In this document: positions 28,509 through 60,227 of the stretch, piece after piece
Position numbering within the stretch: the first letter of the stretch is position 1
How the letters are laid out: each line of letters starts with the position of its first letter
Assembly (NCBI RefSeq): GCF_003992675.1
Contig: NZ_RZMZ01000014.1
Location: 265,760 to 329,759 of the forward strand
DNA from: Flagellimonas marinaquae
GTDB lineage: Bacteria > Bacteroidota > Bacteroidia > Flavobacteriales > Flavobacteriaceae
Reading direction: 5' to 3'
DNA: 64,000 bases
Translations under genes and position numbers: made by a program
The notes under the pieces: generated by a model
Told to the model about the DNA's origin: nothing
The model's database searches: none
The model's input: only the letters and a program-made list of their open reading frames with translations

Positions 28509-29591
28509 TTATGCGTTGATGATTTTTTCTTGGTGGTTGATGGATTCCTGGTGAATGGCCTTGAACATTTTAAGAATAAACTCTTCGCTCAAACCTCGCT
28601 GCTCGCCCTCCAAGATCATGCTGCCCAGAATAGCGTTCCAGCGGTTGCTCTGAAGCACCGCTACGTTCCTTTGCTTTTTCAACTCGCCAATACCGTCCGA
28701 AACCTTCATTCTTTTACCCAATAGATCGATCAACTGATTGTCCAGCACATCGATTTGGGCCCTAAGGTTGCTCAAACTGTTGTTGTATTCCGCTTCTTCA
28801 TCAGTTTCTTTTCTGATTCTAAGATCTTTCATGATTTGTACCAATGTTTTAGGGGTCACCTGTTGTGCAGCATCACTCCATGCGTTATCTGGGTCGTAAT
28901 GTGTTTCGATCATCAACCCGTCAAAATTCAAGTCCAAGGCAGTTTGCGATACATCAAAAATCATATCTCGCTTCCCGGTAATATGGCTTGGGTCGTTGAT
29001 AATGGGCAGATCGGGGAACTTGGTCTGCAATTCGATGGCCAATTGCCACTCTGGTATATTTCGGTATTTGGTTTTTTCGTAGGTAGAGAATCCTCTGTGG
29101 ATCACACCCAATTTTTCAATATTGGCAGAATACAAGCGCTCTACGGCACCTAACCAAAGGGATAGATCTGGGTTCACAGGGTTCTTTACCAAAACAATTT
29201 TGTCCGTTCCCTCTAATGCATCGGCGATCTCTTGAACAATAAATGGACTCACAGTAGAGCGCGCTCCTATCCATAACAAATCTACATCGTGTTCCAAGGC
29301 AAGGTCCACGTGTGCCCTATTGGCAACCTCCGTAGCGGTTTTTAGCCCAGTTTCTTCCTTTACCTTTTGCAACCACTTCAAACCAATGGCCCCAACACCT
29401 TCAAAGTTTCCAGGTCGAGTTCTTGGTTTCCAGATTCCGGCACGGTAATAGCTCACATCGGTATCCTTTAATTCGTGTGCTATTTTTAGTACTTGGTCTT
29501 CGGTTTCGGCACTGCACGGACCCGCTACTACCAAGGGATGACCCAAGTTCATGTCATCCAACCATTTCCTCATTTCCTTTTTGTTTTCCAT
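28509..29591 (-). CDS. Bifunctional DAHP synthase/chorismate mutase
   Basis: Residues 1-265 are a DAHP synthase of the KDO8P-synthase-like class (strings VVAGPCSAE, YRAGIWKPRTRP and DPSHITGKRD); residues about 270-360 are a type II chorismate mutase (LRAQIDVLDNQLIDLLGKRMKV). The enzyme makes the first shikimate-pathway intermediate and rearranges chorismate to prephenate, so it holds the entry and the branch point to Phe and Tyr in one chain. The mutase domain probably gives feedback control, as known in other DAHPS-CM fusions. Last gene of the operon. Confidence 0.93.
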   Translation of the reverse strand: MENKKEMRKWLDDMNLGHPLVVAGPCSAETEDQVLKIAHELKDTDVSYYRAGIWKPRTRPGNFEGVGAIGLKWLQKVKEETGLKTATEVANRAHVDLALEHDVDLLWIGARSTVSPFIVQEIADALEGTDKIVLVKNPVNPDLSLWLGAVERLYSANIEKLGVIHRGFSTYEKTKYRNIPEWQLAIELQTKFPDLPIINDPSHITGKRDMIFDVSQTALDLNFDGLMIETHYDPDNAWSDAAQQVTPKTLVQIMKDLRIRKETDEEAEYNNSLSNLRAQIDVLDNQLIDLLGKRMKVSDGIGELKKQRNVAVLQSNRWNAILGSMILEGEQRGLSEEFILKMFKAIHQESINHQEKIINA

Positions 29592-29599
29592 AATACTCT

Positions 29600-30460
29600 C
29601 TATTTTTTTGTAAGTGGTATTCCTTTTAGTATTTGTTTTATTTTATTGGTATTGCTCATTTCTTGGTGGACCTGCTCAAAATCGTTGTCCAAAATCAGTT
29701 GTTTGAAAGCAGTCAAGTTCTGAATGTACTCCTCCAAAGTTTCCACCACATTGTCCTTGTTCTGTTCAAAAATGGGCGTCCACATATCGGGTGAACTTTT
29801 CGCCAAGCGAACGGTGCTCTCAAAACCACTTCCCGCCATGTCAAAAATATCACGCTCATTTTTTTCCTTCTCAATAACTGTCTTTCCCAACATAAAAGAG
29901 CTAATGTGTGATAAATGGGAAACGTAGGCGATGTGTTTATCATGTGCTTCGGGATTCATATATCGAATTCGCATCCCGATATCTTGAAAAATGGCCAATG
30001 CCTTTTCCTGAAGTTTGAAAGCCGTTTTCTCCACCTCACAAATAATCATCGTTTTGCCGGCGTACAACCCCTCCAAAGCTGCTGTAGGACCAGAAAATTC
30101 TGTTCCCGCGATGGGGTGACAGGCCATAAAGTTCCTACGCTTGGGATGATCGGCTACCTGCTCGCAAATCAAACGCTTGGTAGAACCTGCGTCCATGACC
30201 ACGGTTTCTTCCCCAGCAGCATCCAATATGCCGGGCAATTCGCTGACCAAGACATTTACCGGAATGCTCAAGTAGACCATATCTGCCGCAGCCAATGAAT
30301 CGTAATTCCCCTTTGTATCGATAATCCCAAGTTGTAATGCCTCCTCAAGATGAGCTTCACTCTTATCCACACCAATAATCTCCGCTTCGGGATGTAGTCT
30401 TTTCACATCCTTGGCAAAGGAACCACCAATCAATCCAACTCCTATAATAACTACTTTCAT
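29600..30460 (-). CDS. tyrA: Prephenate dehydrogenase
   Basis: This NAD-dependent enzyme makes 4-hydroxyphenylpyruvate from prephenate, for tyrosine. The 286-residue protein begins with a Rossmann motif GVGLIGGS (7-14) and has the family string MACHPIAGTEFSGP, where the His is the conserved active-site region. No ACT or mutase domain is attached. It lies three bases after the aminotransferase and eight before the DAHP synthase. Confidence 0.94.
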   Translation of the reverse strand: MKVVIIGVGLIGGSFAKDVKRLHPEAEIIGVDKSEAHLEEALQLGIIDTKGNYDSLAAADMVYLSIPVNVLVSELPGILDAAGEETVVMDAGSTKRLICEQVADHPKRRNFMACHPIAGTEFSGPTAALEGLYAGKTMIICEVEKTAFKLQEKALAIFQDIGMRIRYMNPEAHDKHIAYVSHLSHISSFMLGKTVIEKEKNERDIFDMAGSGFESTVRLAKSSPDMWTPIFEQNKDNVVETLEEYIQNLTAFKQLILDNDFEQVHQEMSNTNKIKQILKGIPLTKK

Positions 30461-30463
30461 ATC

Positions 30464-31606
30464 CTAAAATCTTGCTATGGCCTCCTCAATTTTTTCTTCG
30501 GTCACACAAAGCGAAAACCGAATATAGCCCTCGCCATTGCTTCCAAAAATGGTTCCTGGAGCAATAAAAATATCCTTATCGTAGAGCACTTGGTCTATAA
30601 ATTCTTCCGATGGCCCAGCCCCTTCTGGCAACTTGCACCAAACAAACATTCCCACAGCATTTGTATCGTAAGTACAACCTAGTTTATCCGCTAGTTTGAA
30701 CATCAACGCTCGCCTTCTGGTGTATACCCGATCCAGGGCCTCAAACCATTCCGCACCACTTTGTAGGGCAGCTATTGCGCCCATTTGGATACCGTAAAAC
30801 ATCCCGGAATCCATATTGCTTTTCACCTTCAACACCGCCGTGATGTGCTCTGCACTACCGAGTACCATTCCCACACGCCAGCCTGCCATATTAAAGGTTT
30901 TACTTAAACTGTTGAGTTCCAACGTGTGCTCTTTGGCATCTTTAATGGACAAAATACTGGTTGGATTATGGGACAGGACAAAACTGTATGGGTTATCGTT
31001 CACCAAAAGGATGTTGTTCTTCCTGGCAAAATCTACCAAAGATTCCAATTGCTCCGTCGTTGCTGTCGCGCCTGTAGGCATATGCGGATAACTGACCCAC
31101 ATCAACTTTACTTTTGACAGGTCCATTTTAGCCAGTTCCTCCAAATCAGGAAACCAGCCATTATCTGCCGCAAGGTCGTATGTAACAGGTACACCACCCA
31201 CCAAATTGGTGACAGACGCATACGTAGGATATCCAGGGTTGGGCAGTAGCGCCTTATCGCCTTCGTTCAAAAAGGCCATACTGATATGCATTATGCCCTC
31301 CTTAGATCCCATTAAAGGCAAAATTTCAGAATCTGACTCCACTGCGACACCGAACTTTTGCTGATAAAAATCGGCAATAGCCTTCCTCAACTGTGGCAAT
31401 CCCTGATAGCTTTGGTATTGGTGCGCACCGGCATCGATAATGGAATTTCGAAGGGTTTCCAATACCTGAGGCGATGGAGCCAAATCCGGGCTGCCTATCC
31501 CCATATTGATGATGGGCTTCCCTTGGGCCATTAATCCCCTAACCTCTCTCAACTTTTTCGAGAAGTAATATTCCTGAACGCTATTTAATCGATCCGCTGT
31601 TACCAT
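30464..31606 (-). CDS. Class I/II PLP aminotransferase of the aromatic operon
   Basis: A 380-residue fold-type I aminotransferase. The PLP lysine is Lys236 in NSLSKTFNMAGWR, with NDNPYSF for the pyridoxal-ring Asp/Tyr contact and IRFSL near the end for the carboxylate-binding Arg. Position between prephenate dehydratase and dehydrogenase suggests it transaminates phenylpyruvate and hydroxyphenylpyruvate, or prephenate. Related proteins are annotated as LL-diaminopimelate or aspartate aminotransferases, so the substrate is an inference. Start overlaps the pheA stop by one base. Confidence 0.88.
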   Translation of the reverse strand: MVTADRLNSVQEYYFSKKLREVRGLMAQGKPIINMGIGSPDLAPSPQVLETLRNSIIDAGAHQYQSYQGLPQLRKAIADFYQQKFGVAVESDSEILPLMGSKEGIMHISMAFLNEGDKALLPNPGYPTYASVTNLVGGVPVTYDLAADNGWFPDLEELAKMDLSKVKLMWVSYPHMPTGATATTEQLESLVDFARKNNILLVNDNPYSFVLSHNPTSILSIKDAKEHTLELNSLSKTFNMAGWRVGMVLGSAEHITAVLKVKSNMDSGMFYGIQMGAIAALQSGAEWFEALDRVYTRRRALMFKLADKLGCTYDTNAVGMFVWCKLPEGAGPSEEFIDQVLYDKDIFIAPGTIFGSNGEGYIRFSLCVTEEKIEEAIARF

Positions 31607-32433
31607 TACAACAATGCATTTTTATATTCTCCCAAAACCTTGAAATCCTCAGCCATAATCTGCATCAGGGATTTGGTTTTGGCAAAGTGCTCGTATTCAT
31701 CAAAAGTTACATCCACAAAAAAGGCGTATTTCCAGGGAGTTTCGATCACGGGCAATGACTGTATTTTGGTCAGGTTCATGTTACAATCGCTCATCACGTT
31801 CAAAACGGTGGCCAAACTGCCTCTTTTGTGATCGGTGATAAACCGAAGGGACGCTTTATTGATTTCCTCCTCTGGGAGTACTTTGTTCTGTTTTTTTAGG
31901 ATGATAAATCTTGTGGAATTATTCACTATGGTCTGGATATTATCCGCGATAATCTCCAAATCGTAAAGGTCGGCAGCCATTTTAGGGGCAATCGCGGCAA
32001 TATGCCCTAACTCTTCCTCTTGAATCCGCTTCGCTGTCTCTGCCGTATCCACGCTTTCCACCAACTTGATCTGTGGGTGTGCCTTAAAAAATTCCTTGCA
32101 CTGCAACAACGCCATCGGGTGCGAATGTACCTCTTGAATGTCATCAAAGGTTTTTCCCTTCATCACCATAAGGTTATGATGAATGTTCAAATAATGCTCC
32201 CCGATCACATGAATATTATTGTGGTACACTAAATTGTAATTGGGGATGATGGACCCCGCTATGGAATTCTCAATGGCCATTATGCCCTTATCGGCCGCCC
32301 CCACCAACAAACTGTCGATTACCGCGTCAAAGGAATTACATTCCAATAGTTCAATTGCTTCTCCAAAAAAATCGATGGCCACTTGATGATGGTTCGATCC
32401 CTTGATTCCTTGTATGGCGACTTTTAAAGACAT
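31606..32433 (-). CDS. pheA: Prephenate dehydratase
   Basis: This enzyme makes phenylpyruvate from prephenate. The 275-residue protein has the catalytic domain (IENSIAGSI near 55; NSTRFIIL near 176, where Thr/Arg/Phe form the TRF motif) and a C-terminal ACT domain (IQSLPV) that should bind Phe for feedback inhibition. It is the first structural gene of the operon, behind a 154-base leader that holds the attenuator. It thus has two levels of Phe control: allosteric and transcriptional. Confidence 0.94.
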   Translation of the reverse strand: MSLKVAIQGIKGSNHHQVAIDFFGEAIELLECNSFDAVIDSLLVGAADKGIMAIENSIAGSIIPNYNLVYHNNIHVIGEHYLNIHHNLMVMKGKTFDDIQEVHSHPMALLQCKEFFKAHPQIKLVESVDTAETAKRIQEEELGHIAAIAPKMAADLYDLEIIADNIQTIVNNSTRFIILKKQNKVLPEEEINKASLRFITDHKRGSLATVLNVMSDCNMNLTKIQSLPVIETPWKYAFFVDVTFDEYEHFAKTKSLMQIMAEDFKVLGEYKNALL

Positions 32434-32449
32434 TCTTTTTGTATGTTAG

Positions 32450-32487
32450 ATCCCGAAACACCTTGCCTGCCGGCAGCAGTTCGGGAT
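32450..32487. repeat. Palindromic repeat with a nested palindrome
   Basis: ATCCCGAA and TTCGGGAT form the outer stem; inside is the perfect palindrome CTGCCGGCAG. The architecture (hairpin within the loop of a hairpin) recalls the interrupted repeats at 44564 and 49826. It lies between the attenuator terminator and the pheA start. Confidence 0.75.
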
Positions 32488-32531
32488 GAATTCAATCATT
32501 AAATTGGCAGTTGCCAACTTGGATTTCATTC

Positions 32532-32563
32532 AAAAAAAAAGTCCCGATGCATCGGGACTTTCT
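32532..32563 (-). terminator. Attenuator terminator of the aromatic operon
   Basis: The palindrome GTCCCGATGCATCGGGAC (32541-32558), extended by AAA/TTT, is followed on the minus strand by nine T. It stands between the leader ORF and pheA, so unless it is prevented from folding it ends transcription before the operon. Its 5' arm is complementary to the end of the leader ORF. Confidence 0.9.
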
Positions 32564-32601
32564 ATAGTGGTTATACTTTAAACGTATCTATAACAGTCCC
32601 G
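32553..32601 (-). promoter_or_regulatory. Antiterminator helix of the aromatic attenuator
   Basis: On the minus strand CGGGACTGTTATAG (32601-32588, the last codons and stop of the leader ORF) can pair with CTATAGAAAGTCCCG (32567-32553). The 7-bp CGGGACT/AGTCCCG core is extended across a small internal loop by TATAG/CTATA, with a further ATAC/GTAT hairpin at the tip. The helix uses the 5' arm of the terminator, so the two structures exclude each other. Confidence 0.8.
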
Positions 32602-32659
32602 CTCCCCTCTCAAAAAAGAAGTAAAAATAAAAACGGTTCCAGAAATACGTGTTTGTCAT
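32588..32659 (-). CDS. Phe/Tyr-rich leader peptide of the pheA operon
   Basis: A 23-codon ORF from ATG 32659 to TAG 32588. Codons 5-16 read YFWNRFYFYFFF: six Phe, three Tyr and one Trp in twelve codons. It ends in the sequence that forms the antiterminator and is 25 bases upstream of the terminator stem. By analogy with E. coli pheL, a ribosome short of Phe-tRNA (or Tyr-tRNA) would stall in this run, free the end of the ORF to form the antiterminator, and let transcription continue into pheA-aminotransferase-tyrA-aroG. No Shine-Dalgarno is visible, as usual in this phylum. The peptide itself probably has no function. Confidence 0.88.
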   Translation of the reverse strand: MTNTYFWNRFYFYFFFERGAGLL

Positions 32660-32874
32660 CTCGTTGTTAATTGTCGGCTAATTTAGGTATTCAATCGGAA
32701 AGACCCAGAGATTCCCAAATTTTTTTTGATTTTTTTCAAAAAAGACATTTTCGCTGCACATTATTTTATAGAAATGATACTTTTTTACGAATACTCATGT
32801 TTCCATTAATTCCAAGAAAAGTGTCGTTTCATTTTCCAGTTTTTGAAATGTAAGGTTTACAATGACTAAAAGTG

Positions 32875-43206: not shown

Positions 43207-43358
43207 CGTTATCCTTCCCCCTATACAAATATTAGGTATAAATACGCTCCATGTGGTCCCCAACAAGTTGCGGACCGGGGTAGAATGTAGCACCTTCTCG
43301 AAGACGAGGGTTGCTAAGGCTTCAAAGGGTCCAATCCCTCCACCTTTCTTGATAACAC
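43207..43358 (-). ncRNA. SAM-I (S-box) riboswitch upstream of metH
   Basis: On the minus strand, from GTTATC (43356) the consensus follows: AAGAAAGGTGGAGGGA, then GAAGCCTTAGCAACC and AAGGTGCTACATTCTACC. The 3' strand of P1 is GATAAC at 43213-43208, after an enlarged P4 region with an extra GGTCC/GGACC hairpin. It leads metH-N, metH-C and metF. SAM binding should lower their expression; the downstream elements suggest control of translation. Confidence 0.92.
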
Positions 43359-56557: not shown

Positions 56558-56661
56558 ATGTTATCTATTCCCTGTGGGATAGAATGTAGCACCTTCTCGA
56601 CAAGCGTCAAGGGTTGCTAAGGCTTCAAAGGGTCTATTCCCTCCACCTTTCTTGATAACTT
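56558..56661 (-). ncRNA. SAM-I (S-box) riboswitch upstream of metX-thrA
   Basis: On the minus strand P1 is GTTATC (56659-56654) with GATAAC (56565-56560). Between them are AAGAAAGGTGGAGGGA, GAAGCCTTAGCAACCC, GAGAAGGTGCTACATTC, and a compact P4 (TATCCC-ACA-GGGAATA). This is a full, standard-size S-box. It begins about 20 bases after the transcription start predicted from the -7 element at 56687. Confidence 0.93.
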
Positions 56662-60061: not shown

Positions 60062-60147
60062 TTCCAATTTTTTAAAAAATGTAAAGATTTGACCAAAGTG
60101 CGAAGAAGTTCTTAACCTTGAAGAAGGGGCACCAACCGAAGCCAGCG

Positions 60148-60220
60148 CGAACTGCTTTAGCATTTTTACTCGCCCTTTTTGGGCAATCGAGGTTGCAATC
60201 AGTCAAATCTTTCCTCGTTT
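60148..60220 (-). ncRNA. SAM-II riboswitch upstream of metK
   Basis: On the minus strand CGAGG-AAAG-ATTTGACTGATTGCAA-CCTCG gives P1 (CGAGG/CCTCG) and the loop string that matches the SAM-II core GATTTAACCG..ATTGCAA; downstream TAAAAATGCTAAAGC matches the conserved 3' part that forms the pseudoknot. Between them is an extra small hairpin GCCC-AAAAA-GGGC in the connecting loop. It starts just at the transcription start expected from the -7 element at 60228. Confidence 0.85.
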
Positions 60221-60227
60221 TGAGGGG

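Follow-up and report, generated by a model that had tools for sequence, protein, structure and literature searches.

We describe here an element upstream of pheA in Flagellimonas marinaquae which, judged from its sequence and from modelled folding states, is very probably a ribosome-mediated transcription attenuator of the pheL/trpL type that would sense the charging of tRNAs for Phe, Tyr and probably Trp. Its short ORF, the competing RNA segments, their conservation and covariation, and their spacing can be read directly in the DNA. In the following, the window denotes the whole 64,000-nt stretch that was analysed; coordinates refer to it, and all features given with coordinates lie on its minus strand.

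Leader ORF and terminator upstream of the pheA operon

The operon begins with pheA for prephenate dehydratase (31606..32433; PDT 195 bits, with ACT below threshold at 20.1 versus a cut-off of 27), followed by genes for a class I/II aminotransferase (30464..31606), for prephenate dehydrogenase (tyrA, 29600..30460) and for DAHP synthase fused to chorismate mutase type II (CM_2; 28509..29591). These Pfam and NCBIfam assignments bear out the gene order proposed in an earlier, sequence-only reading of the window. Of 80 titled relatives, 78 have the same order, and the remaining two end early downstream of pheA. The closest titled PheA, which is 99% identical, comes from Muricauda sp. ARW1Y1 (L033), and the next ones come from Allomuricauda and Flagellimonas.

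In front of pheA stands a leader ORF of 23 codons plus TAG (MTNTYFWNRFYFYFFFERGAGLL, 32588..32659), read directly and conserved in relatives, with its ATG starting at 32659 and its stop codon at 32590-32588; the peptide matched no Pfam or NCBIfam model. Codons 5-16 (YFWNRFYFYFFF, 32612..32647), the putative control codons, contain 10 aromatic codons in 12, in the order Y, F, W, F, Y, F, Y, F, F, F, exactly as the sequence-only reading had counted them. When the 839 ATG ORFs of the window that have 12-40 codons were compared, both strands included, this leader ranked top with 10/12 and the runner-up had 7/12; no ORF attained 8/12 in 40 dinucleotide shuffles of the window. The aromatic density of the leader ORF is beyond chance. 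Moreover, nine ORFs in the window have at least six aromatic codons, and by our script's rule only the pheA leader has a terminator within 100 nt.

This predicted intrinsic terminator, located between the ORF and the first gene of the operon, is a perfect hairpin, GTCCCGATGCATCGGGAC (32558-32541), with nine T behind it (32540-32532), and here too direct reading agreed with what had been claimed. Segment 2, the antiterminator strand CGGGACT (codons 20-22, 32595..32601; placed by pairing, covariation and modelled states), is complementary to AGTCCCG (32559-32553), a stretch spanning the beginning of the terminator. Pairing and covariation define segment 3 (AAGTCCCGA, 32552..32560) as both the terminator 5′ arm and the partner of segment 2, and segment 4 (32532..32547) comprises the terminator 3′ arm TCGGGAC and the nine T, by direct reading and covariation. 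Codons for the end products of the operon are clustered, and the antiterminator uses the 5′ arm of the terminator, so that the two structures exclude each other.

Simple terminator-like patterns are frequent here (5 in 2 kb versus 2.0 in shuffles), and the hairpin might simply terminate an upstream gene or a small RNA. However, the gene upstream of the leader, gldA, is divergent, and thus the leader terminator serves no upstream gene; in addition, segment 2 and the terminator co-evolve (see below), and we regard an ordinary terminator as hardly conceivable. A candidate -7 promoter element, TAAATTAG (32678..32685), is found 18 nt 5′ of the leader ATG and is a variant of TAnnTTTG, which we take to be the Bacteroidota -7 promoter consensus.

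Distribution of the leader

In our surveys a leader was called when an ORF upstream of pheA had at least 7 aromatic codons in 12, strand-aware. At this threshold 1.5% of 1656 random 450-nt stretches from the titled loci passed, and 6.1% passed at 6. The leader was present in 30/30 loci of the same genus, our own included (34 of 35 other genomes were matched, 29 of which were read), and in 80/80 loci of titled relatives, including Maribacter, Arenibacter, Croceitalea, Croceivirga, Sediminicola, Kriegella and Eudoraea. In the family, where 107 of 120 genomes were matched (own included) and 89 of the 106 others were read with the remaining 17 left out, 86 of 89 loci carried it, 85 within 450 nt and one (L130) at -460, and it was absent from the three other loci read (L151, L172 and L194). 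The conservation of the aromatic run in relatives, which the sequence-only reading had proposed to examine, was thus found at each of these levels.

In the order set 61 of 98 genomes were matched, giving 25 new loci, some of them from genomes already in the family set (G161, G167 and G173), and 19/25 passed at 7. One of these passes (L253, 7/12) is probably due to chance in an AT-rich 600-kb genome. It belongs to four loci of the order set, all from 600-kb genomes of genus g218 (L249, L251, L253 and L254), in which pheA is kept and a convincing leader was found in none of the four, as if leader regulation had been lost with genome reduction. In the class set the picture is patchy, with 16/28 loci passing at 7 or more and 20/28 at 6 or more, and a clear absence in at least 7 of the 28 (L203, L209, L213, L214, L218, L226 and L229); due to the fact that the single-protein query matched 30 of 109 genomes, this picture covers the matched part of the class only, and of the 28 loci one is from the same family and one from the same order. 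In the phylum set 102 of 118 genomes were matched, and no leader was seen within 400 nt upstream of the open frame in the 28 loci outside the class among the best 30 of 103 matches, the maximum being 4/12 aromatic codons.

In total 252 upstream regions were scanned, some of them from one genome under two locus ids, and 21 gave no leader plus terminator by script. In six of these misses (L210, L215, L219, L221, L223 and L250) an aromatic ORF is visible on inspection, and therefore the script undercounts. Removal of identical leaders left 202. A TAnnTT[TA]G box lies at most 60 nt upstream of the leader in 168 of these 202, where 20.2 were expected from mononucleotide shuffles.

Two class loci (L215 and L228) show, by eye, two tandem aromatic leader ORFs upstream of pheA, each followed by a hairpin and a T-run.

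Aromatic codons persist while the peptide changes

In the diverse set of 114 leaders, the mean number of aromatic codons was 8.68/12 in frame 0 and 2.56 and 3.49 in the other frames. Because the ORFs were chosen as the most aromatic ones, this contrast mainly shows that the stretch is not merely rich in T whatever the frame. An ATG start was found in 201/202 leaders; like the aromatic content and frame figures, this number leans upward, since the script favors ATG starts and selects the ORF with the highest aromatic content. ORF length changes are whole codons, within the run in L111, L114 and L124 and close to the start in L127. In one leader of the same genus (L004), a one-base deletion 3′ of the aromatic run extends the ORF from 23 to 26 codons and shifts the stop codon, and the run is intact.

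These observations bear on the idea of an untranslated structured element, riboswitch-like or protein-bound, in which the ORF would be incidental. The leader region is strongly structured (RNA fold z-score -3.33), and in near leaders of 23 codons two codons are themselves fixed (codon 14 is TTC and codon 15 is TTT in 86/86; codon 16 is TTT in 79/86), both of which would suit such an element. Nevertheless, the aromatic content is specific to one frame, the ORF changes length by whole codons, and the leader has no Rfam match at gathering score, and we consider an untranslated element extremely unlikely.

Another explanation is that stalling is caused by the growing aromatic peptide, which would make the ribosome respond to a free aromatic amino acid and not to a lack of charged tRNA; TnaC is the model of an arrest peptide of this kind. 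In the near set the peptide is indeed strikingly conserved (YFWN-FYFYFFF), but part of this conservation can reflect RNA pairing of codons 8-10, and across family and class the peptide is almost wholly different and the stop position variable, whereas the number of aromatic codons is kept. An arrest peptide is thus very unlikely, and a peptide that varies with its aromatic codons and frame kept is what would be expected if selection acted on the aromatic codons and not on a single peptide.

The run had originally been described as one of Phe and Tyr codons. Both occur in 114/114 diverse leaders; the run of the window also has a Trp codon, and Trp codons occur in 69/114 diverse leaders. Hence the signal probably comprises all three aromatic amino acids, and from the codon content of these ORFs we would expect that Phe, Tyr and Trp are sensed together.

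The antiterminator and terminator helices covary

Covariation was tested with an alignment of 60 leaders (A1) and 500 shuffles. In the antiterminator helix 95.5% of cells are paired and 7 cells are changed on both sides, in the terminator helix 99.3% are paired and 15 are changed on both sides, and for each helix 0/500 shuffles matched the covariation score. Slid versions of the helices pair in at most 62.9% of cells (A1), and the outermost pair of the antiterminator (columns 62/114) does not hold in 14/60. In the 114 diverse leaders, the duplex of segment 2 with the terminator arm had a native mean of -11.57 kcal/mol versus -8.03 kcal/mol with permuted arms (0/10000), and with one leader for each of the 18 arm types the values were -11.42 versus -7.61 kcal/mol (0/10000). 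The two helices covary, and the compensatory changes that the sequence-only reading had named as a check are present in both of them.

The pairing as first drawn, CGGGACT..TATAG with CTATA..AGTCCCG, needs to be narrowed. Its core, GGGACT/AGTCCC, is shared in A1, whereas the extension by a possible pairing of TATAG (32592-32588) with CTATA (32567-32563) is peculiar to the window-type sequence and is also seen in L033.

The RNAalifold consensus adds a helix between segment 2 and codons 8-10 (segment 1, 32630..32638), a putative protector (1:2), and in the window's own minimum-energy fold this pairing is slightly shifted relative to the consensus. Although 96.7% of its cells are paired, the 1:2 helix shows no more covariation than shuffles do (145/500). 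In the diverse set its native pairing beats permuted ones with a z of -10.4, and one control pairing reached -2.5, which indicates that relatedness inflates permutation tests. Pairing of the ORF start with bases 3′ of the stop codon also beats permutation, with z of -8.0 (diverse set) and -4.0 (near set), and three controls gave -1.5 to 0.8.

Ribosome positions and modelled states

In the 114 diverse leaders segment 2 starts at a median of 12 nt (sd 1.9) beyond the last aromatic codon, and the distance of the stop codon is much more variable (sd 7.7). The fraction of leaders in which segment 2 starts at 9-12 nt is 0.70 in the native leaders versus 0.63 with permuted arms, and thus spacing alone is a modest argument.

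States were modelled by partition-function folding of the RNA up to the 3′ arm, with the leading edge of the ribosome placed 10 nt beyond the A-site codon, the value known from E. coli toeprints. In this model, the antiterminator captures the terminator 5′ arm in 199/202 leaders when the ribosome occupies the last aromatic codon and in 202/202 when it is four codons before it, and with a ribosome at the stop codon the arm is captured in 13/202. When no ribosome is present the arm is captured in 175/202, unlike in classical superattenuation. For the window, the corresponding capture values are 1.0 for the last aromatic codon, 1.0 for four codons earlier, 0.56 for the stop codon and 1.0 for no ribosome. 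The spacing for masking and freeing segment 2 is thus present in the model, with the window stop state at 0.56; this value reflects an alternative of -2.6 kcal/mol that is replaced by the terminator fold (-16.3) once the 3′ arm is made. In full-length RNA beside a stalled ribosome, the terminator fold (-18.6) wins over the antiterminator region alone (-17.0). Hence, antitermination must be kinetic, i.e. 2:3 pairing would have to form before segment 4 is made, and kinetic read-through of this kind, in which the antiterminator pairs first, is typical of classical attenuators.

A hairpin at this position could also act mainly by hiding the pheA start, transcription termination being minor, and in favor of such translation control the T-run ends 2-3 nt 5′ of the start of the PheA match in 44/88 near leaders. 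In the window, however, the T-run lies 98 nt from the pheA ATG, and in the 114 diverse leaders the distance from the T-run end ranges from 4 to 335 nt with a median of 22 (approximate, as it was measured to the match start) with the T-rich tail kept. We regard translation control as quite unlikely and retain transcription attenuation as the preferred reading.

The 98 nt between terminator and pheA (32434-32531) hold a second hairpin, ATCCCGAACTG...CGGGAT (32487-32450). A mobile origin of this stretch was considered and it was matched against 36 genomes, among which a full-length match was found only in the own genome and in G018 (97%), and short pieces were found in G005 and G001. A stretch related to these 98 nt is also held by L020, and in both a short ORF starting MKSK.ATANLM.EFIP can be seen by eye.

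Proposed mechanism

From these data we infer translation of the leader, ribosome stalling, termination, a response to amino acid supply and a role for the 1:2 helix, in the following way. RNA polymerase would transcribe the short leader ORF upstream of the operon. With ample charging of the tRNAs for Phe, Tyr and probably Trp, the ribosome would reach the stop codon and cover segment 2 (CGGGACU), upon which segment 3 would pair with segment 4 and transcription would stop at the U-run. When charged aromatic tRNA is scarce, the ribosome would stall within codons 5-16, and segment 2, lying just past its leading edge, would be able to pair with segment 3 before segment 4 exists, leading to read-through into the operon. 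The weaker pairing of the middle of the ORF with segment 2 (1:2) may serve as a protector. In the sequence-level respects analysed here, with the exception of the protector helix, the element is built as an aromatic leader-peptide attenuator, and it would be expected to function as one.

Such a leader would provide a concrete, codon-level model of aromatic pathway control for a widespread marine and soil family, with no protein regulator needed. It also offers a test of transcription–translation coupling in Bacteroidota, and its many divergent natural variants lend themselves well to working out the rules of attenuation.

Comparison with known attenuators

In E. coli pheL/pheA and trpL, a leader peptide rich in the amino acid made by the operon is combined with an antiterminator that competes with a terminator. 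The leader in the window resembles these systems in its amino-acid-matched peptide, its competing antiterminator and terminator, and their order and spacing, but differs from them in belonging to another phylum, in its mixed Phe, Tyr and Trp codons, in an uncertain protector, and in an operon that also contains tyrA and the DAHPS/CM gene. Attenuators of Bacteroidetes may be listed by Vitreschak et al. in 2004 and by Lopatovskaya et al. in 2010. The Rfam model Phe_leader (RF01859) spans the whole leader of the window at 28.5 bits (E 0.53), below its gathering score of 55, and models without relation to it reach similar scores there (for example rimP, 31.2 bits), so no significant kinship is indicated.

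In the family itself, PMC9723704 describes 64 structured 5′ regions in F. psychrophilum and, in its main text, reports 'strong clues' that leader-peptide attenuation acts in front of amino-acid operons; it also describes structured elements before pheA and hisG that are conserved in other Flavobacteriaceae genera and have no Rfam hits. Hence, an element at this place was already known to exist in the family. As the pheA element of F. psychrophilum precedes the same gene in the same family, is kept across genera and has no Rfam hit, as is the case for our leader, the two are very probably the same element. The main-text account (supplements aside) gives no peptide, codons, pairing or class-wide range for it, and the present analysis adds the peptide and its codons, the segments with their covariation, the modelled states and the range. 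A worked-out pheA attenuator in Bacteroidota was not found in our literature search, subscription papers and supplements aside. Leader ORFs in general are treated in PMC4833913, and PMC7366714 mentions short ORFs of B. thetaiotaomicron that resemble leader peptides.

Within the phylum, Bacteroid-trp (RF01692), listed in PMC2864571, is likewise a leader-peptide attenuator. It is also present in the genome of the window, but it has Trp codons and belongs to the Trp branch, and it gave no gathering-score match at the pheA leader. In this genome, a WWW leader, MIYRTTNNWWWINLRQTS, precedes a chorismate-binding gene (L257), probably trpE, and the stretch matches Bacteroid-trp at 57.3 bits (gathering score 49). 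Moreover, a His-rich leader, MRNKNTHHHFYTCPQAR, stands upstream of hisG (L255) and is followed by a terminator, with the 5′ arm of which the leader tail can pair at -7.9 kcal/mol. With His and Trp leaders in the same genome, leader-peptide attenuation looks like a general strategy of this organism.

We lean towards a broader view, in which an ancestral attenuator of Bacteroidia would pool the charging of Phe, Tyr and Trp tRNAs into one signal for the common and the Phe/Tyr branches. It would have persisted despite near-total replacement of its peptide and have been lost from the 600-kb genomes of at least one group, and together with the His and Trp leaders it would imply tight coupling of transcription and translation at leaders in this phylum.

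A riboswitch or T-box at the leader was considered and rejected, as no Rfam match at gathering score was obtained there; the whole window gave just three matches, all of them SAM-type riboswitches outside the leader. These are located at 43246-43358, 56558-56661 and 60147-60222, and two of them are of the SAM family and one is a SAM-II long loop.
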